A stretch of 64,000 nt of DNA from Muribaculaceae bacterium (GTDB lineage Bacteria; Bacteroidota; Bacteroidia; Bacteroidales; Muribaculaceae). Of the stretch, positions 24,232-64,000 are shown one piece after another. How positions within the stretch are numbered: position 1 is the stretch's first letter; every line of letters begins with the position of its first letter. Where the stretch lies: NCBI GenBank assembly GCA_017557625.1, contig JAFYYG010000047.1, positions 1 through 64,000 of the forward strand, read 5' to 3'. Both the position numbers and the translations under genes were made by a program. The notes under the pieces were generated by a model. The model did no database searches. It had not been told where the DNA came from and worked only from the letters and a program-made list of their open reading frames with translations.

Positions 24232-26118
24232 ATGAAAAAAATCATTTTTATTTTATTTGCTGCTATGTTATTGGCGGCAAGTAATAGCGTAAATGCTCAG
24301 CCCGAGTCGTTCACTCAGGTTTATCTTCAAAAAGACTACCGCGGCGGTGAGGTTGTGAGAACAAATAAAGTCACCGTTGTTTGGGATGCTGCCACAGAAC
24401 AATTAACGTTCAATAATTTCTATTGGAATACCGATGTGGTAAACTCTGCCTCGGCTGTTGTCAATCTGCCGATTAACTATGGTGCAAGTGCCACCAGTCT
24501 TACATGGGAAAGTGACACCAAAGCTTCTTTCACTTGGCGTGTGGCTTATTTAGGAAAGACCACCAAATTTGGTTATACAGGTTATCAACATACATTGGTT
24601 GCTCACATGAAGTATTATCAACAAGGTGTTACTACTATTTATAATGAAAGAGTTTATTACACCTACGATGGCGGTGCCGATTGTCATGGCACTATTGATT
24701 TGGAAAAAGGTGAAATAACTCTTGATGATCCTTGGGGGTGTGTTGTGGCTCAAGGAACATATTGGTATACTCCTTCAAGTTCGCGTGTTGTTGAGTATTT
24801 CGAACATTCAGTGTTCACAGCTACTAACCTCGTTGACATCGTTAATGACGGAGAACCAGGTGAGAAATACACTGTTCACGACGACCTTGTGGGCATTGCC
24901 ACTGTTGACGGTGTGTTAAGTGCTCCAATGGGGGTGAGCAAAAATCAAAACACATTTGAGATTGATAAGGGTAAATATAAACTTGACTTGGACTTGAGTG
25001 CTAACACCCTCACCGTGTCGCAGAGTGCCGATGCTGTTACAGGATATGTCAATAACGGCAATTATCCCACTTACTATGTTTTGGGAGAAGCGAACGGTAA
25101 TAGCTGGAATCCTACCGTAGGTCAGCCCATGGAGACTACCGATGGCGTTCATTACAGTGCTGTGGTGAATTTCTTAGGTGGCAGCAACAATAAGAACTAT
25201 TTCAGCATAGTAAGTGCTTTGGCACAAAATAACGACCAAGGTGGATGGGATTATGTTAACTCTAACCGTTACGGACCTTCAAGCAATGATTATCCAGTTG
25301 CAATGGGCGATGTGCTCTTTGCTAAGGATATGGGCAAGTATAGGAACCCATCTGTGCTGCGTGATGGCCAGGACGACTTTATGGGACGTGTGGCTGCTGA
25401 ATATGCTGGCGACATGAGTTTCCACCCCGCCAGCAGTTATGACCAGAGCAACTGGGTAATGCTCACTGGCGTGACCAATGCCAACAACTATGTGGGCAAG
25501 ATTATCAAGGGGCGGAGCATTACCGGCACGCTCGTTGACAAAGTTAACCCAACTATCGCTGTGACTTCCAACCCCGCTGCTGGCGAGTCAAGCTCTTACA
25601 CTCCCAACCTCTACATCATGCCGAGCTTCAACGAGGCGTATTATGCTCCCGAGAGCAATTTCTTCTTTGTCGCTCCCAAGGTTCAGGAGTATGCCTATAT
25701 AACATGGGCTTGCTACAACGATGCCGACGGCAAGTTCTATGTGCCCAACGATGGCAACGACAACAATTTGAGTGGCGGCATCGCTGTGAATTGGGATTAC
25801 CTCCCCAACGGCACACCTCAAGATGGTTATGTCTATGAGTTTGATGCCATTCTGCGCAAAGTGCCTGCCGCCAGCAAGGAGGGTGCTCAAAGCACACCAA
25901 ATACTGATGTTTCTTCTGCCGACTATCTCGTTTATCCTTTGCGTCTCTATGATGTACCCACCGCCATAAAGACCGTTGAGACTACAGGCAAGGTAGTTGA
26001 CATGAAGTACTACAACTTGATGGGCGTGGAGAGTGCAACACCATTCAACGGCATGAACATTGTTGTAAAGGTTCTCGACAATGGTTCCCGCATCACAACT
26101 AAGAAACTATTCAAATAA
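24232..26118 (+). CDS. Multidomain secreted protein: shared N-domain, SusE/F-like module, T9SS-like tail
   Basis: Exported protein of 628 aa, function unknown. The ATG at 24232 is preferred over 24226 because it begins the signal peptide (MKKIIFILFAAMLLAAS). Residues ~25-205 repeat the unnamed beta domain of the previous protein (DYRGGEVVRTNKVTVVWD). Residues ~270-400 resemble the carbohydrate-binding modules of SusE/SusF (YYVLGEANGNSWNPTVGQPM, then WDYVNSNRYGPSS). The C-terminus (MKYYNLMGVESATPFNGMNI, ending TKKLFK) is a T9SS-like sorting tail almost identical in pattern to its neighbour's. Starch- or glycan-binding at the cell surface is a reasonable inference. Confidence 0.65.
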   Translation: MKKIIFILFAAMLLAASNSVNAQPESFTQVYLQKDYRGGEVVRTNKVTVVWDAATEQLTFNNFYWNTDVVNSASAVVNLPINYGASATSLTWESDTKASFTWRVAYLGKTTKFGYTGYQHTLVAHMKYYQQGVTTIYNERVYYTYDGGADCHGTIDLEKGEITLDDPWGCVVAQGTYWYTPSSSRVVEYFEHSVFTATNLVDIVNDGEPGEKYTVHDDLVGIATVDGVLSAPMGVSKNQNTFEIDKGKYKLDLDLSANTLTVSQSADAVTGYVNNGNYPTYYVLGEANGNSWNPTVGQPMETTDGVHYSAVVNFLGGSNNKNYFSIVSALAQNNDQGGWDYVNSNRYGPSSNDYPVAMGDVLFAKDMGKYRNPSVLRDGQDDFMGRVAAEYAGDMSFHPASSYDQSNWVMLTGVTNANNYVGKIIKGRSITGTLVDKVNPTIAVTSNPAAGESSSYTPNLYIMPSFNEAYYAPESNFFFVAPKVQEYAYITWACYNDADGKFYVPNDGNDNNLSGGIAVNWDYLPNGTPQDGYVYEFDAILRKVPAASKEGAQSTPNTDVSSADYLVYPLRLYDVPTAIKTVETTGKVVDMKYYNLMGVESATPFNGMNIVVKVLDNGSRITTKKLFK

Positions 26119-26140: not shown

Positions 26141-27859
26141 ATGAAGAAGCATCTTTTTCTAATCTTACTGCTTGCGCTGGCAACGACCAATGTATCGCGT
26201 GCCGCTTCGGCGTTCACAGCCGAGAAGCTGGCAAGCATCAACATCGAGATGGACCGCGACATCCAGACAGGTGGTAACATTGGTTGCAACCGAGTGTCAA
26301 TGGCCTATACGGGCGGAACAAGCCGTGTGACGGTGTCTAACTATTTCGCTCAGGGTAGCGACCTCACTTTCAGTGTGAACTGGGGTGGCAACACCATCAC
26401 ATTTCTGCCGCAGTGTGTTTACACCTATCAGTATCAAAGCTATACTTGCTACCTCTATGTGGTAGCACAGTCGGTTGTGAACAATAGCGATGTGAACACC
26501 GTTCTTAATACCAGTCTTTCGGGACGAGTTAACTCCAGCGGTTTCACTATCTCAACTACATGGAACTTGGCACTGATTTATTATGATCCCGATAGTGACA
26601 GTTATGTGAACGCTGGTGCGATGTACGACAACGGCATGTTCACCCAGTTCATAGCAAGCAACGCCACTATGACCTACGACGAGGTTGATTTCGACAGCGA
26701 TGACCACGTTTATAACACTGGCGAGGTGGCCTCGTTCCCCGTTTACCTCTATTATTATAATAATAAGGTGACGATTTACAACTTCCTCGACTACGGCTTT
26801 ATTCCTGAATATACCCCTGGCGAAGGCAAGAACAGCTGGCTGAATCCGAACCAAGAGCTTGCTCAATATAAGGATAACCAGACAGGTGTTACTTATCATT
26901 TCTGCCTTTACAATTGGGGACCTAACGCCGATGGCTTTGCCGATGTTTATACCAATCAGTATGCACAAGCCGAGGTTACCTCTGAGACTGTGTTTGACAT
27001 GGGTAATATCACCCTTGCCGACATGGTTCGCGACGGCATGGGATTCATTGGCGGCAATGCTAAGATTGTGCTCGAGAGCGGCACACTGCCATATGAGGAG
27101 CCTGTAATTCCCGGCGACGTGAATGCTGACAAGAAGGTGAACGTCACCGACGTGATGTGCGTGGCCAACTATATTGTGGGCATAACTCCCGAGGTTTTTG
27201 TTGAGGAGGCTGCCGATGTGAACGCCAGCGGCTCAATCAACATCACCGACCTTATCGCTATCGCCAATATCGCTGTGGGCAACACTTCAGCACCAGCCCT
27301 GAATGCACCTAAGGCGGCTACCAACGACGTGCTGAGCATTGGCGACTATGACGCGGCAACAGGCACTATTGCTATAACTCTTGACAACGCAACAGCCTAC
27401 GCCGGCTTCCAGATGGATGTGACTTTGCCACAAGGTCTCACCTTAGAGAACGCGGAACTCACAGGCCGTGCCGCTTCACACACCTTGATGACTGGTGTCA
27501 ACCCCGACGGCTCTATTCGTCTGCTCGGTTTCTCGCTCAACAACAACGAGATAGCTGCTGGCAGCGACGCAATTATCACTCTCAAGGTTAAGGCCACATC
27601 AGCACTCGACGCTAACGATGGCATAACTATCAGCGACATCTTCTTCACTCAGCAAAATGAGGTGGAGAGCGTGTTGCCAAATGTGACCACCAATGCAGTT
27701 GTCACAGCCATTTCTGAGATTGGAACTGACGGCGAGGGCGTTAACGTCTATGATATGTGCGGCGTGCTCGTACGTCAAGGCGTGAATCCAGTAGAGGCAA
27801 CTCAAGGTCTGCCAACTGGTGTTTATGTAATCAACGGCAAGAAGGTGCTTGTAAAATAA
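26141..27859 (+). CDS. Surface protein with dockerin-like, cohesin-like and T9SS-tail domains
   Basis: Exported 572-aa protein. Signal peptide to about residue 22. Residues ~22-320 are a beta-rich region of unknown type. Residues ~325-382 are a two-loop dockerin-like domain (GDVNADKKVNVTDVMCVANY and DVNASGSINITDLIAIANIA), with the first loop less acidic than classic calcium loops. Residues ~395-525 form one cohesin-like domain (GFQMDVTLPQGLTLENAEL, GSDAIITLKVKA). The end (YDMCGVLVRQG, LPTGVYVINGKKVLVK) is a clear T9SS type-A-like sorting tail. The next gene, 20 nt away, encodes six cohesin-like repeats plus a dockerin, so this may be the anchoring partner (inference). Confidence 0.7.
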   Translation: MKKHLFLILLLALATTNVSRAASAFTAEKLASINIEMDRDIQTGGNIGCNRVSMAYTGGTSRVTVSNYFAQGSDLTFSVNWGGNTITFLPQCVYTYQYQSYTCYLYVVAQSVVNNSDVNTVLNTSLSGRVNSSGFTISTTWNLALIYYDPDSDSYVNAGAMYDNGMFTQFIASNATMTYDEVDFDSDDHVYNTGEVASFPVYLYYYNNKVTIYNFLDYGFIPEYTPGEGKNSWLNPNQELAQYKDNQTGVTYHFCLYNWGPNADGFADVYTNQYAQAEVTSETVFDMGNITLADMVRDGMGFIGGNAKIVLESGTLPYEEPVIPGDVNADKKVNVTDVMCVANYIVGITPEVFVEEAADVNASGSINITDLIAIANIAVGNTSAPALNAPKAATNDVLSIGDYDAATGTIAITLDNATAYAGFQMDVTLPQGLTLENAELTGRAASHTLMTGVNPDGSIRLLGFSLNNNEIAAGSDAIITLKVKATSALDANDGITISDIFFTQQNEVESVLPNVTTNAVVTAISEIGTDGEGVNVYDMCGVLVRQGVNPVEATQGLPTGVYVINGKKVLVK

Positions 27860-27879
27860 TCGAAACACCTTAGTTAGAT

Positions 27880-30624
27880 ATGAAAAAGTTATTTCATATT
27901 TTAATACTATTGTTGGTGGCTGGGGCATTCCAAGCTCATGCGGCTAATGAGTTGCGTATCGACGATTTTTCGGTACAGGCTGGCGACACAATCACTGTGC
28001 CCGTTCTGCTCGATAATCCCGATACCGACTTTGCCGCATTCCAGTTTGACCTCTACATGCCTTCGGGACTTAGCGTCGCCGAGGGAGGATTCAGGCTGGG
28101 TGAGCGTGCCTCGAGTTCGCACCAACTGATGACAAATGTCAACGGCGACCACATCACGGTAATGGCATTCAGCTTCCCAGCCACCAATTTCACTGGACAG
28201 AGCGGAGCAGTGCTGACCATTGACATAGTGGCTGCCAGCGACTTTGAAGGTCAGGCGGTTATCAACGTGAATAATATCGCGCTCACCACTGCCGATGCTC
28301 ATGAACACAGCCACCCCGACTTGGCAGTGACTGTCACGGCGCAGGGGTTCATAGTACTGGGCAACGAATTCTACATGAATGATTTTGAGATTGCCCCGGG
28401 CACCACCATGACAGTGCCTATTGTTCTCGATAACTATGCGAGTGCTATAGCAGGTTTCCAGTTCGACATGTATCTGCCTGAGGGTATCACCACAACCTCC
28501 AGCTCGTTCACCCTTAGCGACCGCAAGTGCGAAACTCACCAATTAGTTGCTAACAAGAACGGCGACCACTGGAGCGTGGTGGCATTTGGTTTCCCTACCA
28601 CCGATTTCAGTGGCGACAGTGGCGATATTATGTATATCGACTTCACGGCAAGCAAGTCGTTTGTAGATAGTGCGTTAATTGAGTTCCGCAACGTGATGCT
28701 CTCAACGAGCGATGCTCACGAGAGTCCTGTTGAGGACTTTGATGTGACAGTTACTGCCAATGGCGTGTATGTCCCCAGCGACTATCTGACAATTGAAGAC
28801 TTCGCCATCAAGCCTGGCAAGACTAAGATAATGCCAGTGCTGCTTGAGAATGAAGTGACACGGTTCTGCACAATTAGTTTTGAGATGACTGTTCCACAGG
28901 GATTGAGTGTTGACGAGGATGCATTCTCTCTTACCGACCGTGCAGTAGATCATGAACTGAATATCATTGCTCTTGGTGAAAATAGCTATAAGGTAGTAGT
29001 CAGAGGCCGCTATGGTCACTACTTCACTGGCACTTCGGGTGCTGTCCTCAACATTGAGGTTGCTGCCGACCGCACCTTCGAGGGGCAGGCGGTCATCAAT
29101 ATGAGCAATGTGCGTCTCATTGAGCCAAACAGCGATTACACAACTATCGATGACTTTGACGTTACCGTGACTGCCGACGGTGTGTATGTACCTGAGAATC
29201 TCTTCTATATCAACGATTTTGAGATTACTCCAGGTCAAACCGTGCAAATGCCGGTGATTATGGACAACGAGGCGACTCCTGTTGCCGCCTTCCAGCTCTC
29301 GTTGGAGATGCCCGAAGGTCTCACAGCCCATGGCGTTACTCTTAGCGACCGCAAGAGTGAGACTCACCAGGTGGTTACTAATGCGAATGGTAACACCATT
29401 TCGATTGCCGCGTTCAGCTTCCCGCCAACCAATTTCACCGGCAACTCGGGCGAGGTGATGTATATCAGCGTTACTGCCAGTCGCGATTTCGAGGGTTCTG
29501 CCACAATCCACGTGAGTGATGTGGTGCTTACCAGTGCCGATGAGGTGGAGACACTTATTGAAGACTTCGATGTTAATGTCACCGCCAACGGCGTTTATGT
29601 ACCAAGCGACAATCTCACTATCAGCGACTTCGCCATCGCTCCAGGACGCTCTACTCAAGTGCCTGTGGTGCTCACCAACGAGACTGTTGTGGTCAATGCC
29701 GTGGAGTTTGACCTTGAGGTTCCTCAGGAGCTAACTGTGGCTAACCAGGTAAGACTTGGCGAGCGCGCTAACGGCCATCAGGTGACCATTGCCCAGCAAG
29801 GTGATGTGCTGCACGTTGCTGAGTTCTGCACTCCCCCTACCGCCTTCGTTGGAGACGATGGCAATATCATGTATCTTAAAGTGAATGCCGCAAGGGAGTT
29901 TGCGGGCTCTACTGTCATTAACGTCAAGAACGTGGTGCTCAAGACCGATGGAGAAGACATCTATATTGACGACTTTGTTGTAGTTGTCACCGCGAGTGGT
30001 CCATACGTGCCAGTTGACACCCTCTATATTGATGACTTCAGCATTGAGCCAGGCAAGACGTTAAGCGTGCCAGTGGTGATGGACAATGAAATCACAAGCA
30101 TCTCAGCTGTGCAGTTTGACCTAACTATGCCACAGGAACTCTCCATTCCGAGAGCCGACAATGGCGACTACAGTATGGCACTCACCGACCGCATGAGCGA
30201 CAACCACTACCTCATTGCCAATCCCAAGAACAATGGCGATATTCGCGTTGTGGCAATCAGCTTCCCGCCAACAGATTTCACTGGTGACAGTGGCCCAATC
30301 ATGAACATCGATATGGAGGCTGATGAGAATTTCACTGGAACCACACAATTCACAGTGAAGAATGTAGTGATGACTACCGCCGACGCACAGACCGAGATCA
30401 GCATTCCCGACTTTGTCGTGGTGGTGACTGCAATCAAAGGCAGCGACCACATATTTGGCGACGTGAACTGCGACGGCTATGTGACCACCACCGACATTAC
30501 CGCACTCTACAACTATATGCTCAACGGTGACGAGACCTATCTTGCCACCAGCGATGTTAACGGCGACGGTTCAATAACCAGCGCCGACGTGACAGCAGTT
30601 TACAATATCCTTTTGGGCAATTAG
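27880..30624 (+). CDS. Scaffold-like protein: six tandem cohesin-like repeats and C-terminal dockerin-like domain
   Basis: Exported 914-aa protein with a signal peptide (MKKLFHILILLLVAGAFQA). Six repeats of about 139 residues begin near 24, 163, 301, 440, 577 and 713. Each opens with a strand of type 'xxINDFxIxPGxT', then VPVxLDNxxxxxAxFQFDLxxP and SGxxxxIxxxA, ending NVxLxxxDA ... DFDVTVTAxGVYVP; this is the order of strands and the PG-T and FQFDL features of cohesin domains. Repeat 3 is the most divergent. The last ~56 residues are a dockerin-like domain with two calcium-type loops (GDVNCDGYVTTTDITALYNY and DVNGDGSITSADVTAVYNIL). There is no T9SS tail. Cohesins and a dockerin in one chain is the layout of scaffoldins; partners and function are inference. 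Confidence 0.75.
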   Translation: MKKLFHILILLLVAGAFQAHAANELRIDDFSVQAGDTITVPVLLDNPDTDFAAFQFDLYMPSGLSVAEGGFRLGERASSSHQLMTNVNGDHITVMAFSFPATNFTGQSGAVLTIDIVAASDFEGQAVINVNNIALTTADAHEHSHPDLAVTVTAQGFIVLGNEFYMNDFEIAPGTTMTVPIVLDNYASAIAGFQFDMYLPEGITTTSSSFTLSDRKCETHQLVANKNGDHWSVVAFGFPTTDFSGDSGDIMYIDFTASKSFVDSALIEFRNVMLSTSDAHESPVEDFDVTVTANGVYVPSDYLTIEDFAIKPGKTKIMPVLLENEVTRFCTISFEMTVPQGLSVDEDAFSLTDRAVDHELNIIALGENSYKVVVRGRYGHYFTGTSGAVLNIEVAADRTFEGQAVINMSNVRLIEPNSDYTTIDDFDVTVTADGVYVPENLFYINDFEITPGQTVQMPVIMDNEATPVAAFQLSLEMPEGLTAHGVTLSDRKSETHQVVTNANGNTISIAAFSFPPTNFTGNSGEVMYISVTASRDFEGSATIHVSDVVLTSADEVETLIEDFDVNVTANGVYVPSDNLTISDFAIAPGRSTQVPVVLTNETVVVNAVEFDLEVPQELTVANQVRLGERANGHQVTIAQQGDVLHVAEFCTPPTAFVGDDGNIMYLKVNAAREFAGSTVINVKNVVLKTDGEDIYIDDFVVVVTASGPYVPVDTLYIDDFSIEPGKTLSVPVVMDNEITSISAVQFDLTMPQELSIPRADNGDYSMALTDRMSDNHYLIANPKNNGDIRVVAISFPPTDFTGDSGPIMNIDMEADENFTGTTQFTVKNVVMTTADAQTEISIPDFVVVVTAIKGSDHIFGDVNCDGYVTTTDITALYNYMLNGDETYLATSDVNGDGSITSADVTAVYNILLGN

Positions 30625-38217: not shown

Positions 38218-41200
38218 ATGAGCATGAACATTACTCGTTTATCATGGTTGCGTGGCCTAATGGCTGCTCTTGCGATTTTTCTCGCATATAACGCAGCACA
38301 CGCTCTCAAGTTTGAGGAGCTGGGCTACAACTGGAGCACTTCAGGCACCAATGCAACCTTAGTGAAGTACACTATCAGCTCTCATCAGGAGAATGGTGTT
38401 ACTATCAAGGACTCGCTCTTCTACACTGGCGATGAGAACAACATCGTCAACATTCCAGAGACTTTTGACCACGATGGCATCACCTACACCGTTGTTGCTA
38501 TTGATGCCAACGCATTCGTCAACTGCCGCGACATCAAGGAGATTCACCTCCCCGCCACTTGCGTGAGCTATGGCAACAACTGCTTCCGCGGCTGTACAAG
38601 TCTTACTAACTACCCTGTTACCGAAACGGCAACAAAGATGGGTAGCGGTACAGTTTGGGAGTGCCCCAATGTAACTGAGGCATTCATCCCTGGCGGTGTG
38701 ACAAGCACATTGATTTCCAACCAATTTGCCAATAGCGGTATTCGCAAACTCACTATCATGGCAAGCGGCACACCTCTCAAGTTCAACAGGAACGCATTTG
38801 GTGCCACTACTGCCGACCTCCCACCACTTGACACCCTCATTATTCTCCGTCAAATGAACACTGGAGACTATGTGAGCAACCTACAACCATTCCACAACTA
38901 TCCTACTATCAAGCAACTTGTTTTGGGTGACAGTATAACTGATATCGCACAAAGCTGTTTTATGGGATGTTCCGGTATTGAAGAGATTATATTTAAAGAC
39001 GGCAACGTAATTGCCACTATTGGTTCCGACGCTTTCCAGGGTTGCAACCACCTCAAGACCATTGAGCTGCCAGCAACCATCACTTCGGTGCCTATGAACC
39101 TGTTCCTTGGCTGCTCACGACTTGAGTCGGTGAGCTTCCTCGGCGACATCACTTCTATTCAGCAGAGCGCATTCAACGGTTGTGCAGCGCTGCACAGCTT
39201 CACCTTCCCAACCACTCTTAAGACCATTGGAGCTTCGGCATTCTACAATAGCGGTCTAACTGGCGTGATTGAGATTCCAGAGGGTGTCACCTCTATTGGT
39301 GCTACAGCATTTGCTGGTTCTAACGCCATCACTGGCATCAAGCTGCCATCAACCATCGCAACAATCGGCAATGCCGCCTTCGGTCCTATCGAGAGCCTTG
39401 CCAGCATTGAACTTGGTGCTGGTAACAGTGCTTTCACTCTCAATAATGGTGTATTGACCAATGCCGCTGGAACTCGTCTGCTCGTGACTGCTCATGAGGG
39501 AAATATTGGCACTATCCTCAACAACCCCACTATCGAGACAATCGACAACTATGGTATGGCATTCTCGCCATATACCGACCTTGACCTCCCAGCTCTCAAC
39601 GAGATTGGCAACTACGGCTTCTACCGCGCTGCCATCAAGGAGTTTACCTACAAGGCTGGCATGACAGTTAATCCTAACGCATTCCTCGAGAGCGACCTTG
39701 AGATTCTCAACACCGAGGAAGGTGCTCGCGAGATTCCTCAGAACCTGTGTGCCAACTGTACTAAGCTTCACACTGTGAACATCTCAAGCACCGTAACCAA
39801 TATCTTCCAAGATGCTTTTGCCGGATGTACAGCCCTTGAGCACATGGAGCTGGGCTCTCACATCAACTACATGGAGAAAGGTGCCGTGCCTTCTACTATC
39901 CAGAGCCTGCGAGTGCTCAACGTCACTCCTCCAGTGCTTGGTGCTGGCGTCTTTGAACCCACCCAGAGCAATGTGCTGTGTGAAGTTGCCGCAACTGCTG
40001 TTGGCGACTACGAGGCTGCTCCACAATGGCAATACCTCAACATCCAGGGCGACCCATCAATCACAGGCGAGGGCACATCCCTTGGCTGTCCAAGTGGTCT
40101 CTACTTCGCAACCAAGGACTGCCGTCTCATGTATCGCGACAACGAAGGCAACATCATTGACACTGAGTTCAACACAGGTGAACATGCTTTCAACATCCAG
40201 AGCTACAAGAACCGCATCTACGTAGCAAGCGCTGGTCACTACTTCCAGTATCAAGGTGCCGACGCTCAAGCCAGCGGCGGTGACGGCGAGCTCTTCTACG
40301 TGAACAACACCGACGGAATGTGGTATCGTGTTACTGTACTCAACAACGTAGGATACAAGGCATTTGAGGATCCATTCTCGATGTATATCTCGGCTATCGA
40401 CAACAAGATTTACATCGCCGACCGCAACGTTGGCATCCACGAGATGAGCGCCGATACCGTAGGCCTCTATGGTACTCAGCCCTTCTTCATGCAGAACAAC
40501 TGGCTGCCTTACTACAACGACAAGATTACTTATGGTGCCATTGGTGCAGGCATGACAATGCGCGCTACCGACGTGATTGCTGCCGACGGTACTACACGCA
40601 ACAACGTTTACTGGGTTGCCAAGAAGTTCAACGGACAAGGTATCTTCCGCTTCGACAAGAGCATGCTCTACAGCGACGGCACAGGTGCAGACCACCCCGA
40701 CAAGCAGTTGCCAGTTTACCTGAACAACGTGCAAATGACATCATTCTACCTTGATGAGGAGAACGGCTACCTCTACTTCTTCGTGCAGAAAGACAATGTT
40801 GGTGGATCTGTACCAGGTCTCTACCGCATTTCTCTCGCTACTCTCAATGCTAAACAAGAAATGGCTACAGTAGCTGAAGATGCAGTTCTTATCGACAACT
40901 CTCCTATCCTGCTCGAAGGCTCTGGCGACGAGATTACCGGCATCACCCAAATCACTGGCGACGGAGAGAACATCTATTGGGCTTACATCTCATGTGGTGA
41001 AGGAACAGCGGTTCCTGACATGGTGGCTTATGACGCTGCTAACCCATTGCACCAGACTGGTATCAAGATGATCAGCGCTAAACCTGAGAACGCAACGGTA
41101 GTACCTCCTATCACTTACGCTGTTGAAGGCATCGCCGCCTATGGTGTTACCACTGCCAAGTTTGAGGCACCTGTAGTAGTTATTCGTGGCGACGTTAACG

Positions 41201-41358
41201 GTGATGGCGAGGTTACTGCTGCCGACGTAACATTGCTCTACAACATTATGCTGAGCGATGATTGGGACGGCGCAGTTTATCCTGATCAGAATGGTGATGG
41301 CGAGGTTACCTCTGCCGATGTAACTGCTGTTTACAATGTCCTTCTTGGAATTAATTAA
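38218..41358 (+). CDS. BspA-like leucine-rich repeat surface protein with C-terminal dockerin-like domain
   Basis: Exported 1046-aa protein. An N-terminal signal peptide ends near AAHA (residue ~29). Residues ~75-590 hold BspA/LRR_5-type repeats (e.g. CTSLTNYP, EIHLPATCVSYGNNCFRGC, GASAFYNSGLTGVIEIPEGV), which in other Bacteroidales mediate adhesion. Residues ~610-960 have propeller-like strands (AFNIQSYKNRIYVASAGHYF, IYIADRNVGIHEM). The last ~57 residues are a dockerin-like pair of loops (GDVNGDGEVTAADVTLLYNI and DQNGDGEVTSADVTAVYNVL). A -7 box TAAATTTG at 38097-38104 predicts a leader of about 110 nt. A strong terminator follows. Confidence 0.8.
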   Translation: MSMNITRLSWLRGLMAALAIFLAYNAAHALKFEELGYNWSTSGTNATLVKYTISSHQENGVTIKDSLFYTGDENNIVNIPETFDHDGITYTVVAIDANAFVNCRDIKEIHLPATCVSYGNNCFRGCTSLTNYPVTETATKMGSGTVWECPNVTEAFIPGGVTSTLISNQFANSGIRKLTIMASGTPLKFNRNAFGATTADLPPLDTLIILRQMNTGDYVSNLQPFHNYPTIKQLVLGDSITDIAQSCFMGCSGIEEIIFKDGNVIATIGSDAFQGCNHLKTIELPATITSVPMNLFLGCSRLESVSFLGDITSIQQSAFNGCAALHSFTFPTTLKTIGASAFYNSGLTGVIEIPEGVTSIGATAFAGSNAITGIKLPSTIATIGNAAFGPIESLASIELGAGNSAFTLNNGVLTNAAGTRLLVTAHEGNIGTILNNPTIETIDNYGMAFSPYTDLDLPALNEIGNYGFYRAAIKEFTYKAGMTVNPNAFLESDLEILNTEEGAREIPQNLCANCTKLHTVNISSTVTNIFQDAFAGCTALEHMELGSHINYMEKGAVPSTIQSLRVLNVTPPVLGAGVFEPTQSNVLCEVAATAVGDYEAAPQWQYLNIQGDPSITGEGTSLGCPSGLYFATKDCRLMYRDNEGNIIDTEFNTGEHAFNIQSYKNRIYVASAGHYFQYQGADAQASGGDGELFYVNNTDGMWYRVTVLNNVGYKAFEDPFSMYISAIDNKIYIADRNVGIHEMSADTVGLYGTQPFFMQNNWLPYYNDKITYGAIGAGMTMRATDVIAADGTTRNNVYWVAKKFNGQGIFRFDKSMLYSDGTGADHPDKQLPVYLNNVQMTSFYLDEENGYLYFFVQKDNVGGSVPGLYRISLATLNAKQEMATVAEDAVLIDNSPILLEGSGDEITGITQITGDGENIYWAYISCGEGTAVPDMVAYDAANPLHQTGIKMISAKPENATVVPPITYAVEGIAAYGVTTAKFEAPVVVIRGDVNGDGEVTAADVTLLYNIMLSDDWDGAVYPDQNGDGEVTSADVTAVYNVLLGIN

Positions 41359-41646: not shown

Positions 41647-43860
41647 ATGAAAAAATTATCTTTATTTCTGATGGCATTTCTTACCGCCATCTTGGCGAGC
41701 GCAGAGCCCGCCAACCCCACACCCATCAACGTGACGCAGCCCGATGGCTCCACGCTACAGCTCATTTTGGTGGGTGACGAGTTCTATCACTTCAACACTA
41801 CTATCGATGGATACACCATCGTCAACATTAATGGCACATGGGAATATGCCACCAAAGACGGCGAGAGATTGGTGTCGTCGGGAGTGATGGCGCATAACCC
41901 CGCCTCGCGCGACACCAAGGAGATGCAACTGGTGGCCTCACTCGATAAGCGACTTGTTGACAAGGCTGCGACTACCCAAGCACGCGAGAATCGCGCTACT
42001 CGCGACAAGAAGAACCAACAAAACCGCGATAATAGAGAGCCAGTAGTTGACTACAGCGCCTTCCGTGGTCTTATTGTCCTTATCAATTTCAACGATAGGC
42101 AGTTCTTGATGGACAACCCAAACGATTTCTACAACCAGCTGTGCAATACCGAGAACTACACAGGATTCTACCATAATGGACGTTTCCAGAGATGCACTGG
42201 CAGTGTGCGAGACTATTACTACGACAACTCAATGGGACAATTCGACCCGAATTTTGATATCGCAGGTCCTGTAAACCTTAACTACTCCTGCTATGAAGGC
42301 AACGACAAAGCGAGAGAGATTTTCAAGGCAGCCCTGGATTCCATTGACGACCAAGTGGATTTCTCGCTCTATGATGCCGACAACGACGGCGAAATCGACA
42401 TGGTGTTCTTCTTAGTGGCGGGATATGCCTCAAGCTACAGCGGAAACAACAGCGGCTACCTGTGGCCACACATGAGTTACCTGATTGACTGGTGGTCGGG
42501 GTGGCCTCCACAACCATATATTTATGACGGCAAAAGAATGGGAACCTACGCCTCCTCGTGCGAGATTTATGGTTGGGAATCTCAACATTCCACTATGCCT
42601 AACGCTATCGGCACCATCTGTCATGAGTTCGGACACGTGCTGGGACTCCCTGACCTTTACGACACCGACTACAGTGACAGCGGTGGCGAGAGCAACCATC
42701 CCGGCGATTGGGACGTGATGGCTGGAGGAAGTTACTCTAACTACGGACGCACACCAGTGGGCTACAGCCTGTGGGAACGTATGGAATTAGGTTTTACTGA
42801 CACACCTGAAGAACTCATATTAGGCGAAAAGACTCTCTCGGCATTGAACGAGAGCAACACGGGCTATATGATGCAGTCGCCCAGCGAATTTGAGTTTTTC
42901 CTCTTTGAGAATCGACAGCCCAACAAGTGGGATGCCGCTCTGCCAGGACATGGATTGGTGATTACACGTGTCGATTACAGTAACGAAGAAGTGTGGTGGA
43001 GCAACGAAGTGAACTGCAATCCCTCACACAACTATTACGAGCTCATTCGCTCTTCAGGTGCTGGCTCTGGAGAGGTTCCCTTCCCAGGCTCGAGAAATGT
43101 GACACTTATCAACTCATCCACCTACCCAGCACTCGTAACTTGGGCTGAAGAGCCTTGTCAGTTCGGATTGAATAATATCAGCGAGGACAACAGCATAATC
43201 ACCTTTAATGTTGTCAATGATGTTCCGCCATTAAATATTGTCGAAGACTTTGAGCTAATGCAAACGGGACTTCCCGCTAATGCCACCAATGTGCAAGGCA
43301 ACTTCGCCACCTGGAACTTCCCAAAAGCCGATGTGGTGGATTATAACGGTCAGCACGCCGCTTCGCTGCAAATGCCCGGAGGCATCGCAATGAACAGCGA
43401 CATCGATGTGCAGGCCATCAAAATTTCTCTTAACGCCGTCAACACATCAACCACAGCATCAAAGATCCAGCTCTACTATTCTACCGATGAGGGAGCGACA
43501 TGGACCTCTATAGGCACCGAGTCGGTGAAAGCTAATTCTGATGAGGCCATATCCTGGCGCCTCAATCTTTCCAAACAACCCATGCGATTTAAAATAAATC
43601 GCACTTCGGGTGCCAAGAATGTGAATCTCATAATCGACAACATAACCATACATTATATTGGCAAAGATAATATTCCTGGCGACGTGAACGGGGATGGCGT
43701 GGTGACAGCAGCCGACGTGACAGCACTCTACGACTTCCTCCTCAACGGAGACATCACGCACCTGATCAACGGCGACCAAAATGGTGACCAAAATATCACC
43801 GCCAGCGACGTGACAGCAGTTTATGACGTTTTGCTAGGAATAAATGAAGGCATTCAATAA
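41647..43860 (+). CDS. M6-family metallopeptidase with C-terminal dockerin-like domain
   Basis: Exported zinc peptidase of the M6 (immune inhibitor A-like) family, 737 aa. Signal peptide MKKLSLFLMAFLTAILASA. The pro-region has the family pattern QPDGSTLQLILVGDEFYHF at ~30-50. The zinc motif is HEFGHVLGLPDLYD with H326, E327 and H330, preceded by calcium-type loops (DADNDGEIDMVFF). A beta-sandwich domain follows at ~540-675 (VEDFELMQTGLPANATN). The last ~60 residues are dockerin-like (GDVNGDGVVTAADVTALYDF and DQNGDQNITASDVTAVYDVL). Candidate -7 box TACCTTTG at 41612-41619. No T9SS tail; the dockerin takes its place. Confidence 0.88.
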   Translation: MKKLSLFLMAFLTAILASAEPANPTPINVTQPDGSTLQLILVGDEFYHFNTTIDGYTIVNINGTWEYATKDGERLVSSGVMAHNPASRDTKEMQLVASLDKRLVDKAATTQARENRATRDKKNQQNRDNREPVVDYSAFRGLIVLINFNDRQFLMDNPNDFYNQLCNTENYTGFYHNGRFQRCTGSVRDYYYDNSMGQFDPNFDIAGPVNLNYSCYEGNDKAREIFKAALDSIDDQVDFSLYDADNDGEIDMVFFLVAGYASSYSGNNSGYLWPHMSYLIDWWSGWPPQPYIYDGKRMGTYASSCEIYGWESQHSTMPNAIGTICHEFGHVLGLPDLYDTDYSDSGGESNHPGDWDVMAGGSYSNYGRTPVGYSLWERMELGFTDTPEELILGEKTLSALNESNTGYMMQSPSEFEFFLFENRQPNKWDAALPGHGLVITRVDYSNEEVWWSNEVNCNPSHNYYELIRSSGAGSGEVPFPGSRNVTLINSSTYPALVTWAEEPCQFGLNNISEDNSIITFNVVNDVPPLNIVEDFELMQTGLPANATNVQGNFATWNFPKADVVDYNGQHAASLQMPGGIAMNSDIDVQAIKISLNAVNTSTTASKIQLYYSTDEGATWTSIGTESVKANSDEAISWRLNLSKQPMRFKINRTSGAKNVNLIIDNITIHYIGKDNIPGDVNGDGVVTAADVTALYDFLLNGDITHLINGDQNGDQNITASDVTAVYDVLLGINEGIQ

Positions 43861-45720: not shown

Positions 45721-45749
45721 CAATGTCGAATCTTTCAATCATCATCACA

Positions 45750-48176
45750 ATGAAAAAGATATTACTTACCCTCGCATTGCTGACGTGCTGCACTTGCACA
45801 ATTACTGCCGGTATCAACATTGGTGGCACTGTCTATAGCGCCGACACTATCATGCACCGACAAGTGGGACCGGGAATATACAACACTATCATCCGCATCC
45901 CCGACTATCCGCTAAATGTCTATCTGCTCGAGGCCGACATGACCAACCCCTACAACCGAGTGGAGACGACCATAGGCTACAACACTCTGGGACGCACAGA
46001 ATTGCTCACCAACGCCTACCACCGCAACCGCACCGCTACCCGTCGTCCCATCGCGGCGTGCAATGCCAACTTCTGGTGCGTGACAGGTAATGGTTCGCCC
46101 ACGATGGACTTCGAACTTGGCGACCCCTTTGGCGCTGTAGTGCGCAACGATAGCGTGTATCTCAACACCGAGACCAACGTCGACGCCTGGAACGGCGGCC
46201 CCAGCCGTACTGGTGCTTGCGCCATAAGTCAAGACAAAACGCTCTACTTCGGGCACTTCAACTGCGGAGGAACACTCTCCTCGCCAAAACTCGCTACCGC
46301 AGCACCATTGAACACGGTGAACCGCCGCAACCTGCCTCACACCGCAGTGCTATGGACTCCCGCTTTCAGCCGCACACGTGAATTTGAAACCAATTGGATT
46401 GACTACAACGAGACTGGCGTTGCCGATGCCGACAACTTCTACCTCACCTTTAATGAAGGTAGCCGCTGGCTCGTGAACCAGGATATGCAATTCACCATCG
46501 CCAAGATCGTGAGAAACGCCGACCGTCAGAAGCTTGGCGACTATGATGCCTGCATTACCGCCACGGGCTTGATGAAAGACTACCTCGCCGCTCTTGCCGA
46601 GGGCGACGTGATCACCATCAACCATGGATGGACCTACAACGAGGAGACACAATTCGCGCCATTTATCGAGAATATGGTTGAGGGCAATGCTCCCGTGATG
46701 CATAACGGCGAACTCACTGGCCGCAACAACGACGAGAACTACAACTCGATGGTGTATAGCCGCACAGCCTACGGCTGCGACGCCACCGGCAAGAAACTCT
46801 ATATGATTGTCATCGACAAATCCACGAGCAAACTCTACGGCACAAGCGCTGGCTGCTCAACCACTGTGATGTGCCAAATTCTAAAAGACCTGTTCCCCGA
46901 TGTTTGCGAGGTAGTGAACATGGATGCAGGCGGCTCGGCCGAGATGATGGTTGACGGACGCATCATCAACACCACCACCGAGAGCAACCCACGCGCCGTG
47001 GCGTGCGGATGGATGCTCGAAACCGAGGCTCCCGAGGACAACGAGATAGCGTCCATACAGTTCTACGACTTCCGCGCCGACCTGCCCATATACTCCTCTT
47101 ATACCCCTCGCATTGTGGGATTTAACCAATATGGCGAAGTAGTGAACGACAATGTCACTGGCTTCACGCTCGAGTGCGATGAAATTCTCGGTTACACCGA
47201 GGGTTCTACTTTGGTTCTCGGCGGCAATGTCACTATAGCCAACCTCACCGCAACCTACAACGGTATGACAGCCACCGCTCCCGTCAAAACCCTCGCCGCG
47301 CAGCCATCAATCACCATGAAGCCTATGATTCTTGTTGACAACCGCGAGTTCCCTATTGAGGTGAGCGCGACAATCCTCGACAAGACGTTCTACTACGACG
47401 GCACAAAATTGGGGTGGGAAGTTGAGGACCCGAGCATCGCAACTATCGTTGACGGCAAGGTTAGAGGCCTCAAAAACGGCATTACCACATTCAACTGCAT
47501 CATCGGCGACTTTGTTGACACCGACAGCATCACTGTGGAAATCAGCGACCGGGAATATATCGAGCAAACATGGGACGGATGGACCTTTAAAGGCGCTGGC
47601 GCCAAGGACTTCGAGCTTGACGAGAATGGAAACCTCTCGTTCTCCTACAGCAGCAACCGTGCCCCCTACATCCAAATGTCAAAAGACATCACCTTCTACA
47701 GCCTCCCCGACAGCATATCGCTCACTTTCACCAGCACACTGCCTATGCAATACATCCAGATTGACGTGCGGAACACCGTTTTCAACAAACTCAACTACTT
47801 GGAATTTGGCAGGGACACAGGCTTTGAGGCAAACACAGAATACACCCTCAATTTCGACCTTGACGAATTGGGTGGCATCGACAACCTGCTAACCTATCCC
47901 CTGACTCTGCACACCATCAAGTTCACTCCCGTGAAGAGCAATTTTGGCGACCACGTCATCCATCTCAAGTCACTAAAAGCCCACTACCCCATCACCTCGG
48001 CTTTGCCGGGTGACGTGAACGGTGATGGAAACGTGACAGCAGCTGACGTGACAGCACTCTACGACTTCATGCTCAACAACGACACCACAAATCTTATCAA
48101 CGGCGACCAAAACGGAGATGGAGACATAACCGCCAGCGACATCACCGAGGTATATAACATTCTATTAGGAGATTAA
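45750..48176 (+). CDS. Phosphodiester glycosidase-family protein with C-terminal dockerin-like domain
   Basis: Exported enzyme candidate, 808 aa. The ATG at 45750 is preferred over 45723 because the signal peptide begins there (MKKILLTLALLTCCTCTITA). Residues ~20-430 match the phosphodiester glycosidase (NAGPA/DUF2233) fold, with AACNANFWCVTGNGSPTMDF, AYGCDATGKKLYMIVIDKST and the hallmark NMDAGGSAEMMVDG near 390-403; these enzymes remove phosphodiester-linked sugars such as uncovering of mannose-6-phosphate. An Ig-like BIG2-type segment follows (WEVEDPSIATIVDGKVRG). The C-terminus has a dockerin-like domain (GDVNGDGNVTAADVTALYDF and DQNGDGDITASDITEVYNIL). Confidence 0.8.
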   Translation: MKKILLTLALLTCCTCTITAGINIGGTVYSADTIMHRQVGPGIYNTIIRIPDYPLNVYLLEADMTNPYNRVETTIGYNTLGRTELLTNAYHRNRTATRRPIAACNANFWCVTGNGSPTMDFELGDPFGAVVRNDSVYLNTETNVDAWNGGPSRTGACAISQDKTLYFGHFNCGGTLSSPKLATAAPLNTVNRRNLPHTAVLWTPAFSRTREFETNWIDYNETGVADADNFYLTFNEGSRWLVNQDMQFTIAKIVRNADRQKLGDYDACITATGLMKDYLAALAEGDVITINHGWTYNEETQFAPFIENMVEGNAPVMHNGELTGRNNDENYNSMVYSRTAYGCDATGKKLYMIVIDKSTSKLYGTSAGCSTTVMCQILKDLFPDVCEVVNMDAGGSAEMMVDGRIINTTTESNPRAVACGWMLETEAPEDNEIASIQFYDFRADLPIYSSYTPRIVGFNQYGEVVNDNVTGFTLECDEILGYTEGSTLVLGGNVTIANLTATYNGMTATAPVKTLAAQPSITMKPMILVDNREFPIEVSATILDKTFYYDGTKLGWEVEDPSIATIVDGKVRGLKNGITTFNCIIGDFVDTDSITVEISDREYIEQTWDGWTFKGAGAKDFELDENGNLSFSYSSNRAPYIQMSKDITFYSLPDSISLTFTSTLPMQYIQIDVRNTVFNKLNYLEFGRDTGFEANTEYTLNFDLDELGGIDNLLTYPLTLHTIKFTPVKSNFGDHVIHLKSLKAHYPITSALPGDVNGDGNVTAADVTALYDFMLNNDTTNLINGDQNGDGDITASDITEVYNILLGD

Positions 48177-62887: not shown

Positions 62888-64000
62888 TTAGTCACTACCC
62901 AACAAGATATTATAAACCATAGTCACGTCAGCGCTTGTAATGCTGCCATCGCCATTGACGTCGCAGGTTGAAAAATACATCATGTCACCATTCAAAAGGT
63001 AGTTATAGATTGCTGTCACATCGGCACTAGTAACATTGCCGTCGCCATTGACATCACCCGACACTTGTGGATTTACAGTTGATGGGAAGGTAACTGTAAG
63101 AACGCCATTTTCAATAGTGAGAGTGTACTCATTCTCCTCGGCGAGAACCAAGTTGCCGCCGTCAACCAGGGCAACTGAAGGATTCTCCTCGGTAAGTGTT
63201 ACACCACCACCCAGCCAGTTGCCGTTCTCGTCTTTAATCTTGAACTCGCCACCAAAGGTCTGAGTCAAAGTGAAAACTTCGTTATTCTCCTCAAATGGAA
63301 CCATTGTCAACTCATTCCACTCGTTGAACTCGCCAATCAGGTAGTAAGCCTTGTCGGGGATAATCTCCTCGGTCAAGGTAATGTTGAGAGTGCAGCTGGT
63401 CTCAGTAACGTTGCTGATGGTGAGAGTAACGTTGCCACTGACGGGGAAATGCATGTTGGCTGTGCCAAAAGAAGTAGAAATCTCATTGTCGCCTACGGCA
63501 AGATTGCTCGCACCCATCACACCGCTATCAAACAACCCCCAGTTGGCGGTGAAATCATCGTTAATACCAATGCTTGAGAGCTTGAAATCGCTAGCAGTAG
63601 CACCTTCAAACTCCAGAGTGTAGGTACCGTCTCCGTTGTTGGAGAAAATCTGATTGCCAGCTGGTGGCATATTCCATCCGCCAAAGGCTGCACCAGTTAT
63701 AGCAAACCTGCGCTGAGCAGGATTAAAGACTGGCTCCTCGGTGAGGACAATCTTCGCCTGGTCAGTGTTGTAATTGTACTGGATAATGTAGGAACCTGAA
63801 GCAGTCAATGTCCAAGCACCCATTGCAACAGTCTCCTCCCAGTCACCTGTAGGAGCCGAGCCATCGCCATTAGCAGGGCCACGTTGTGAGCCCCAATCCT
63901 CAGTGTCACGGAAGAATGCGAAAGATGAACCAGCGGTCAAATCTCCAGACCATGAGTAGATGCTATCGCCGTCAAAAGCCATCTCAACGTTGCCAGTGGT
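62888..64000 (-). CDS. SusE/F-like glycan-binding protein with C-terminal dockerin-like domain (5' end outside the window)
   Basis: The frame is open to the window edge (TTGNVE precedes the first ATG at 63982), so this is the C-terminal part of a longer protein. At least two modules of the SusE/SusF carbohydrate-binding type are visible: RRFAITGAAFGGWNMPPAGN with DGTYTLEFEGATASDFKLS, and KAYYLIGEFNEWNELTMVPF with GGEFKIKDENGNWLGGGVTL. The C-terminus is a dockerin-like domain (GDVNGDGNVTSADVTAIYNY and DVNGDGSITSADVTMVYNIL), close in sequence to the other dockerin tails in the window. Surface glycan binding is inferred from the modules. Confidence 0.75.
   Translation of the reverse strand, partial: TTGNVEMAFDGDSIYSWSGDLTAGSSFAFFRDTEDWGSQRGPANGDGSAPTGDWEETVAMGAWTLTASGSYIIQYNYNTDQAKIVLTEEPVFNPAQRRFAITGAAFGGWNMPPAGNQIFSNNGDGTYTLEFEGATASDFKLSSIGINDDFTANWGLFDSGVMGASNLAVGDNEISTSFGTANMHFPVSGNVTLTISNVTETSCTLNITLTEEIIPDKAYYLIGEFNEWNELTMVPFEENNEVFTLTQTFGGEFKIKDENGNWLGGGVTLTEENPSVALVDGGNLVLAEENEYTLTIENGVLTVTFPSTVNPQVSGDVNGDGNVTSADVTAIYNYLLNGDMMYFSTCDVNGDGSITSADVTMVYNILLGSD

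Follow-up and report, generated by a model that had tools for sequence, protein, structure and literature searches.

The locus examined here raises the question of whether two adjacent genes, P0002 and P0001, encode parts of a surface scaffold resembling those of clostridial cellulosomes. They lie in a stretch of 64,000 nucleotides (nt) of a Muribaculaceae bacterium, hereafter the window. A preliminary description had proposed a six-cohesin protein ending in a dockerin as primary scaffold, and its upstream neighbor, with one similar repeat and a type IX secretion system (T9SS) tail, as surface anchor. We found both open reading frames (ORFs) at the coordinates described before, on the plus strand and separated by the same 20 nt (Table 1). 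Our analysis suggests that P0001 probably serves as scaffold, and P0002 as surface anchor, in a cohesin-dockerin display system of a Muribaculaceae gut genus that occurs in ruminants. The direct basis for this reading is given by the domains, the predicted folds, the recurrence of the gene pair, a match of dockerin classes, the SprA translocon and an exchange of C-terminal tails among C10 proteases.

Residues 23–852 of P0001 are made up of six tandem repeats of 136–140 amino acids (aa) each, as had been described (about 139 residues), and repeats 2 to 6 are 45, 38, 47, 40 and 46% identical to repeat 1. The whole protein matches Pfam Cohesin (PF00963) with an E-value of 2.6e-15 (57.3 bits, cut-off 24.1). 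Taken singly, only repeat 1 scores above the cut-off; repeats 6 and 2 stay below it (22.3 and 15.5 bits), and no Cohesin match was reported by Pfam for repeats 3, 4 and 5. The two-loop dockerin-like C-terminus noted earlier was recovered as Dockerin_1 (PF00404, 47.6 bits, cut-off 22.9, residues 860–912) with two calcium-loop motifs by a relaxed rule. In a FastTree tree the repeats group by position across four species. Repeats 3 and 5 differ from the other four and remain distinct in all four species compared, and may differ in binding preference as judged from sequence; because of this divergence the cohesins of P0001 may not all have the same binding partner.

P0002 comprises a signal peptide (by eye), an uncharacterized N-terminal part, a dockerin, one cohesin-fold domain and a T9SS-like tail. 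Its Dockerin_1 domain (40.5 bits, cut-off 22.9, residues 324–375) carries two calcium-loop motifs by the relaxed rule, at a spacing of 33 residues. The cohesin-like repeat is 29% identical to repeat 1 of P0001 and gave no match to Pfam Cohesin at E-values up to 1. It takes the cohesin fold in its predicted model, and since the Pfam match is absent we call it a cohesin-fold domain by fold only. The tail scored 17.1 bits with TIGR04183 and 22.5 bits in the genome search, both below the cut-off of 23, which is why it is termed T9SS-like. Of the earlier account of P0002, the dockerin and the cohesin fold are thus borne out, while Pfam Cohesin does not recognize the repeat and the T9SS tail remains sub-threshold.

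Regarding the identity of the cohesins, comparison of our profiles with chains of the Protein Data Bank (PDB) by sequence gave no clear cohesin hit. The best match for the cohesin part of profile A6 was 2jh2 (E 0.057), the best cohesin for profile A2 was 5n5p_A (E 0.33), ranked under unrelated proteins, and profile A5 found no cohesin among the PDB chains. Because these hits were unclear, identification relied on the fold. The models of P0001 and P0002 both match the fold of solved cohesins, and not an unrelated fold; their best structure matches include the non-cellulosomal cohesins 2jh2, 2vo8 and 2xdh. By profile and fold, the P0001 repeats are cohesins. How easily such domains escape sequence search is seen in a set of 92 cohesins, of which Pfam detects 13 at E-values up to 0.01.

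The preliminary description had proposed looking for the pair in related genomes. A scan of genome contigs yielded 79 loci, from metagenome-assembled genomes (MAGs) titled Muribaculaceae, Prevotellaceae, Bacteroidales and similar; many locus titles name ruminant gut sites, and the RUG bins are rumen genomes. Our pair count uses 66 of these loci, as the other 13 have no ORF meeting the rule. In the 66 loci 67 ORFs start with a cohesin according to our own profiles, and 62 of these scaffold-type ORFs are preceded within 400 nt (median 19.5 nt) by a cohesin-matching gene on the same strand, so that the scaffold-plus-anchor pair is indeed conserved. The E-values, the models and this conservation exclude chance as an explanation. 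A dockerin was detected by our profile in 58 of the 62 upstream genes, many of which show a T9SS-like tail by eye, and in 51 of the 67 scaffold-type ORFs. The downstream genes carry one cohesin (50/67), two (16/67) or three (1/67), and six in the clade of the window: orthologues of P0001 with six cohesins were found in genomes G010, G011 and G030, and six-cohesin arrays in 919-aa frames of G119 and G192. In a selection of 42 upstream genes, the front part contains LRR_5 in 31 cases, Big_2 in 22 and Peptidase_C10 in two. A second pair is present in the genome of the window on contig C72 (L146:7317-11465). Its anchor combines a C10 protease with an I69 inhibitor domain, Big_2, a dockerin, a cohesin and a T9SS-like tail and is directly followed by a cohesin-Big_2-dockerin protein; an anchor can therefore be an enzyme.

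The order dockerin-cohesin-tail is repeated in the anchor genes. This recurrence would fit an anchor whose dockerin folds onto the neighboring cohesin in cis, leaving that cohesin occupied and unable to take up another protein. The finding that the anchor dockerin forms a separate class, which does not follow the cargo class of its genome, would fit such an anchor as well. As many anchors have an additional cohesin ahead of this dockerin, we give such self-occupation a small chance.

The genome of the window (G000; 3.05 Mb, 76 contigs, 88.5% complete, 1.7% contaminated) is rich in putative partners. A total of 133 dockerin matches fall into 127 ORFs and, after removal of L134:3-1106, a truncated duplicate of the gene found at 62888-63982 in the window, into 126 proteins, which co-occur with the multi-cohesin scaffoldin. 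The dockerin is C-terminal in 91 proteins, N-terminal behind a signal peptide in 21 and internal in 14. Among 119 full-length dockerins two loops were found in 112 by the relaxed and 104 by a strict rule; of the 112, 103 share the loop spacing of P0001 (31 residues). A signal peptide was recognized by a home-made rule in all except two of the 114 N-termini that are intact. Contamination of the bin by Bacillota was set aside, as the dockerins are spread over many contigs and every relative of the genus that was searched has them as well. An example for dockerins straight after the signal peptide is given by L143:569-2914 and L143:4160-5839, two of the 21 proteins of this kind; several N-terminal-dockerin proteins end in a GLRLA-type C-terminus, perhaps the FGE-sulfatase-like domain of the Pfam scans. 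In L117:3284-7850 (contig C38) three adjacent proteins with a C-terminal dockerin share a decayed first calcium loop.

Excluding P0001 and P0002, 124 proteins were scanned with Pfam, and what follows on cargo holds among the families listed (25 of 56 and 25 of 58). The most frequent domains are LRR_8 (29 proteins) and LRR_5 (28), followed by CotH (9), FGE-sulfatase (7), CBM26 (7), Peptidase_C10 (6), alpha-amylase (at least 4) and a few further glycosidase families. The commonest recognizable cargo therefore consists of leucine-rich-repeat proteins and proteases, plus some starch-active proteins; no dockerin-bearing cellulase was seen among these families. The gut and often ruminant origin of the relatives, together with the scaffold and anchor architecture, might suggest a canonical plant-cell-wall cellulosome acquired from Bacillota. 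Given this cargo, the sequence distance of the cohesins from clostridial ones and the lack of any carbohydrate-binding module on P0001 by Pfam at E-values up to 1, we regard such an origin as highly improbable and did not adopt it. This cargo does not establish a strict cellulosome, and because the scaffold has no carbohydrate-binding module we describe the system only as working like one.

The distribution of cohesins and of dockerin expansion was followed in two sets of genomes. An order-level set of 61 genomes comprised the genome of the window, 36 relatives of the same genus and 24 genomes outside the family but within the order. For the relatives our dockerin counts are minimum values, with the first 87 or 40 candidates scored. 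Every one of the 37 genomes of the genus has cohesins of this kind, as do G039 and G057. Dockerins number at least 29 in each genome of the genus, at least 38 in G039 and 0 to 2 in each of the remaining 23 genomes. All 36 relatives of the genus, and G039, thus combine both features. In a family-level set of 149 genomes, cohesins were detected at E-values up to 1e-6 in all 10 genomes listed for the genus, that of the window among them, and in 24 of the 139 remaining ones. At E-values up to 1e-5 the ten have at least 39 dockerins each, whereas 30 of the 139 have one to six and G061 has at least 30. G039, which belongs to another family of the order, encodes proteins with T9SS-like ends (L167 and L168) that measure 1239 aa (5 cohesin matches), 2466 aa (8) and 3771 aa (7); judging by this layout, scaffold and anchor may here be combined in one molecule.

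In clostridial systems the scaffold dockerin is of another type than the enzyme dockerins. We compared dockerin classes using cargo dockerins from seven genomes with one profile per genome, built from the best-scoring ones listed (5 to 14 per genome; the first 40 of G000); G036 has two cargo dockerins only and no class profile. All ten scaffold dockerins scored highest within the class of their own genome (YN-type or LI-type), and seven of the eight with a profile of their own genome scored best with exactly that one. As a control, nine of nine anchor dockerins scored best with a single profile (G025), regardless of the genome. By these profiles the P0001 dockerin is a member of the cargo class of its genome, and scaffold dockerins do not separate from cargo into two tiers (type I and type II). 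Of the clostridial-type scheme, the predicted architecture of scaffold and anchor is retained, and by sequence the scaffold dockerin shows no second class. This argues against a two-specificity hierarchy and for a shared receptor, and the anchor cohesin would be expected to accept cargo and scaffold alike.

As scaffold and cargo dockerins form one class, P0001 might also bind to itself. Successive molecules would then be joined dockerin to cohesin into long fibers on the surface, with cargo in the remaining cohesins and P0002 at the end or start; P0001 and the three orthologues compared all combine six cohesins with a cargo-class dockerin. Against such polymers stands the divergence of repeats 3 and 5, which may indicate cohesins with different binding partners, and we consider polymers unlikely.

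Concerning secretion, the SprA translocon is present in the genome of the window (TIGR04189, 2716.4 bits, cut-off 200), and the T9SS tail model matches 20 places, 14 of them above the cut-off, including two anchors on contig C36. Tails and dockerins are therefore both in use. C10 proteases allowed a comparison of the two, based on 30 loci, two from the genus and 28 from other genera; five of the 28 were cut at the 3' end and dropped. Among the 23 complete proteases from other genera of the family none has a dockerin by our profile, 15 match TIGR04183 and all 23 appear T9SS-like by eye. For the genus we used L314 and ten of the best-scoring matches listed, and treated G000 separately. Ten of these eleven end in a dockerin by our profile as well as Pfam, and the eleventh in a half-dockerin by eye (Fisher's exact test 8e-8, with rows that are not independent). 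In G000 the ten C10 matches are distributed over nine frames. Six frames end in a dockerin; the others comprise one with a T9SS-like tail in addition to an internal dockerin, one that terminates behind the protease domain and one truncated at the contig end. Lipoprotein anchoring of the cargo was rejected: a home-made lipobox rule flagged five of the 114 intact N-termini (one a duplicate), all resembling common signal peptides whose hydrophobic stretch contains a cysteine.

Taken as a scaffold and its anchor, the pair could work as follows. P0002 would be exported by type IX secretion and held on the outer surface by its tail, where it would present one cohesin. P0001, exported without a tail of its own, would plug its C-terminal dockerin into the P0002 cohesin, or into similar anchors encoded elsewhere in the genome, presumably in a calcium-dependent manner. 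Its six cohesins could then hold up to six further dockerin proteins from a pool of about 120 exported ones, most of which carry the dockerin at the extreme C-terminus. The scaffold would thereby multiply surface docking sites, and type IX sorting would take the place of the surface-layer (S-layer) or sortase anchor of Gram-positive bacteria. A more speculative extension, to which we attach little weight, gives the dockerin of this genus a wider role: as address tag of exported proteins it would to a large extent have taken over from the type IX tail, and it would serve as export ticket as well. Cargo would bind cohesins in the periplasm and pass the type IX pore on a tailed anchor, and a small number of cohesin proteins with tails would in this way export and display an entire secretome tagged non-covalently.

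The cohesin folds, the conserved pair, SprA and the roughly 126 dockerin proteins speak for a scaffold with surface anchor as first proposed. Several observations weigh against it. The T9SS score of P0002 is sub-threshold, and since binding moreover is predicted, we do not give the reading full support. No dockerin was detected in 16 of the 67 scaffold-type ORFs, five of them cut at the locus end. Cargo and scaffold with a terminal dockerin have neither a T9SS tail nor a convincing lipobox that would account for their crossing of the outer membrane. The C10 tails of G000 slightly weaken the tail exchange, without changing our estimate, and phylogeny confounds both this exchange and the class match. 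The genome contains 12 cohesin matches for its dockerin proteins, and most cargo could therefore not be bound at once. Distribution, too, has its exceptions: G057 has three cohesin matches and one dockerin, G013 at least 41 dockerins and a weak cohesin match only (4.2e-6; 5.1e-5), and the 24 genomes of the family outside the genus with cohesin matches have few or no dockerins. The clearest exception is G061 from the same family (85% complete), whose numerous dockerins are accompanied by no cohesin according to two profiles and whose C10 protease ends in a T9SS-like tail; either the genome is incomplete or its dockerins have a different partner.

Such genomes, the low number of cohesins relative to dockerins and the non-cellulosomal folds among the structure matches (e.g. 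2xdh, 2jh2) could also be accounted for if the cohesin-fold repeats were spacer or adhesive domains of a surface fiber, with dockerins binding glycans, each other or an unrecognized receptor. It would then be hard to see why scaffold dockerins track the cargo class of their own genome, why cohesins and dockerin expansion coincide throughout the genus and in G039, and why cohesin and dockerin recur in the same gene pair; this explanation appears rather improbable to us.

The features of the window are compiled in Table 1. P0004 and P0003, for which Pfam and NCBIfam searches gave no match, are related to each other (45% identity in the N-terminal region, 58% in the tail). The gene order P0004-P0003-P0002-P0001 is the same in three relatives, with identities of 71–72% for P0004, 76–91% for P0002 and 71–83% for P0001. 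Being related secreted proteins directly upstream of the pair, P0004 and P0003 are perhaps additional parts of the same system.

Table 1. Position of the gene pair, its domains and neighboring genes in the window.
Feature	Position (nt)	Strand	Remarks
P0004	23334..24134	+	266 aa, secreted, T9SS-like tail by eye; first of conserved four-gene group
P0003	24226..26118	+	630 aa, T9SS-like tail by eye; ATG at 24232
P0002	26141..27859	+	572 aa, putative surface anchor
P0002, internal dockerin	27104..27283	+	PF00404, E 3.2e-10; class not following cargo class of the genome
P0002, cohesin-fold domain	27305..27715	+	residues 389-525; model fold
P0002, T9SS-like C-terminal tail	27677..27856	+	TIGR04183 below cut-off
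P0001	27880..30624	+	914 aa, putative six-cohesin scaffold with C-terminal dockerin
P0001, cohesin repeat 1	27946..28362	+	PF00963, 28.9 bits alone
P0001, cohesin repeat 2	28363..28779	+	repeat comparison
P0001, cohesin repeat 3, divergent	28780..29196	+	repeat comparison
P0001, cohesin repeat 4	29197..29607	+	repeat comparison
P0001, cohesin repeat 5, divergent	29608..30015	+	repeat comparison
P0001, cohesin repeat 6	30016..30435	+	repeat comparison
P0001, C-terminal dockerin	30445..30621	+	PF00404, E 1.9e-12; cargo class of the genome; loop spacing 31
Putative cargo, BspA-type leucine-rich-repeat protein	38218..41358	+	C-terminal dockerin
Putative cargo, M6-type peptidase	41647..43860	+	C-terminal dockerin
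Putative cargo, phosphodiester glycosidase (NAGPA) domain protein	45723..48176	+	C-terminal dockerin
Putative cargo, 364 aa, no further domain over cut-off	62888..63982	-	C-terminal dockerin

The cellulosome of Clostridium (Acetivibrio) thermocellum consists of the scaffoldin CipA and S-layer-bound anchoring proteins. In contrast, the system of the window is Gram-negative, has a type IX-like tail in place of S-layer repeats and a scaffold dockerin of the cargo class, shows no carbohydrate-binding module on the scaffold, and its commonest recognizable cargo are not cellulases. Cohesin folds outside cellulosomes are likewise represented by the Clostridium perfringens glycosidase and Archaeoglobus fulgidus cohesins (2jh2, 2vo8, 2xdh); the titles of these entries refer to single glycosidase modules or a non-cellulosomal cohesin, unlike the multi-cohesin scaffold with anchor described here. 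Excerpts on the Ruminococcus bromii amylosome and R. albus-type systems describe many dockerins and few cohesins, the latter thought to serve surface attachment (PMC6118326). The genome of the window resembles them in these proportions and in some alpha-amylase and CBM26 cargo, and differs in its six-cohesin scaffold and recurrent two-gene module. To our knowledge, these Bacillota have no type IX system.

For Bacteroidetes, the following is taken from excerpts of the papers cited and is limited to these. Rumen MAGs carrying a few dockerins, of unclear role, lacked a recognizable cohesin, with cohesins too distant for recognition offered as an alternative (PMC7260996), and the role of dockerins in polysaccharide utilization loci from the rumen is described as undefined (PMC7480376). 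Neither cohesins nor dockerins are reported as present in the Bacteroidetes genome of PMC5831590. Single-cell genomes of Alistipes, Bacteroides and Bacteroidales contain dockerins, and Christensenellales alone a cohesin (PMC10266427); another study found cohesins only in Firmicutes_A (PMC9177762). One two-cohesin protein is mentioned for Prevotellaceae bin RUG606 (PMC5830445), and tandem cohesins with five dockerins for the Bacteroidetes camel bin 136 (PMC6071333). Marginal scaffoldin-bearing genomes are assigned to Bacillota and one member of the PVC (Planctomycetes, Verrucomicrobia, Chlamydiae) group, without Bacteroidota being named (PMC11557425); a review never mentions Bacteroidetes or Bacteroidota (PMC12484212). 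The dockerins and cohesin bins of PMC7260996, PMC7480376, PMC5830445 and PMC6071333 are possibly glimpses of the same or similar systems, although these excerpts mention neither a module of anchor and scaffold nor a match of classes or a link to type IX secretion. Listings and excerpts from open-licence papers likewise contained no account of a cohesin scaffold anchored by type IX secretion.

As far as these excerpts go, the rumen surveys could not assign a role to Bacteroidetes dockerins because the cohesins were unrecognizable. Cohesins of the kind missed there were found here: Pfam sees few of them, yet both modelled proteins have the cohesin fold. If the predicted binding holds true, a genus-wide cellulosome-like display system would exist in Gram-negative Bacteroidota, anchored by a type IX-like tail and serving leucine-rich-repeat proteins and proteases, among other things. 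With it, about 120 proteins of a single genome would gain a defined partner, and cohesin-dockerin pairs would become available from a new source.
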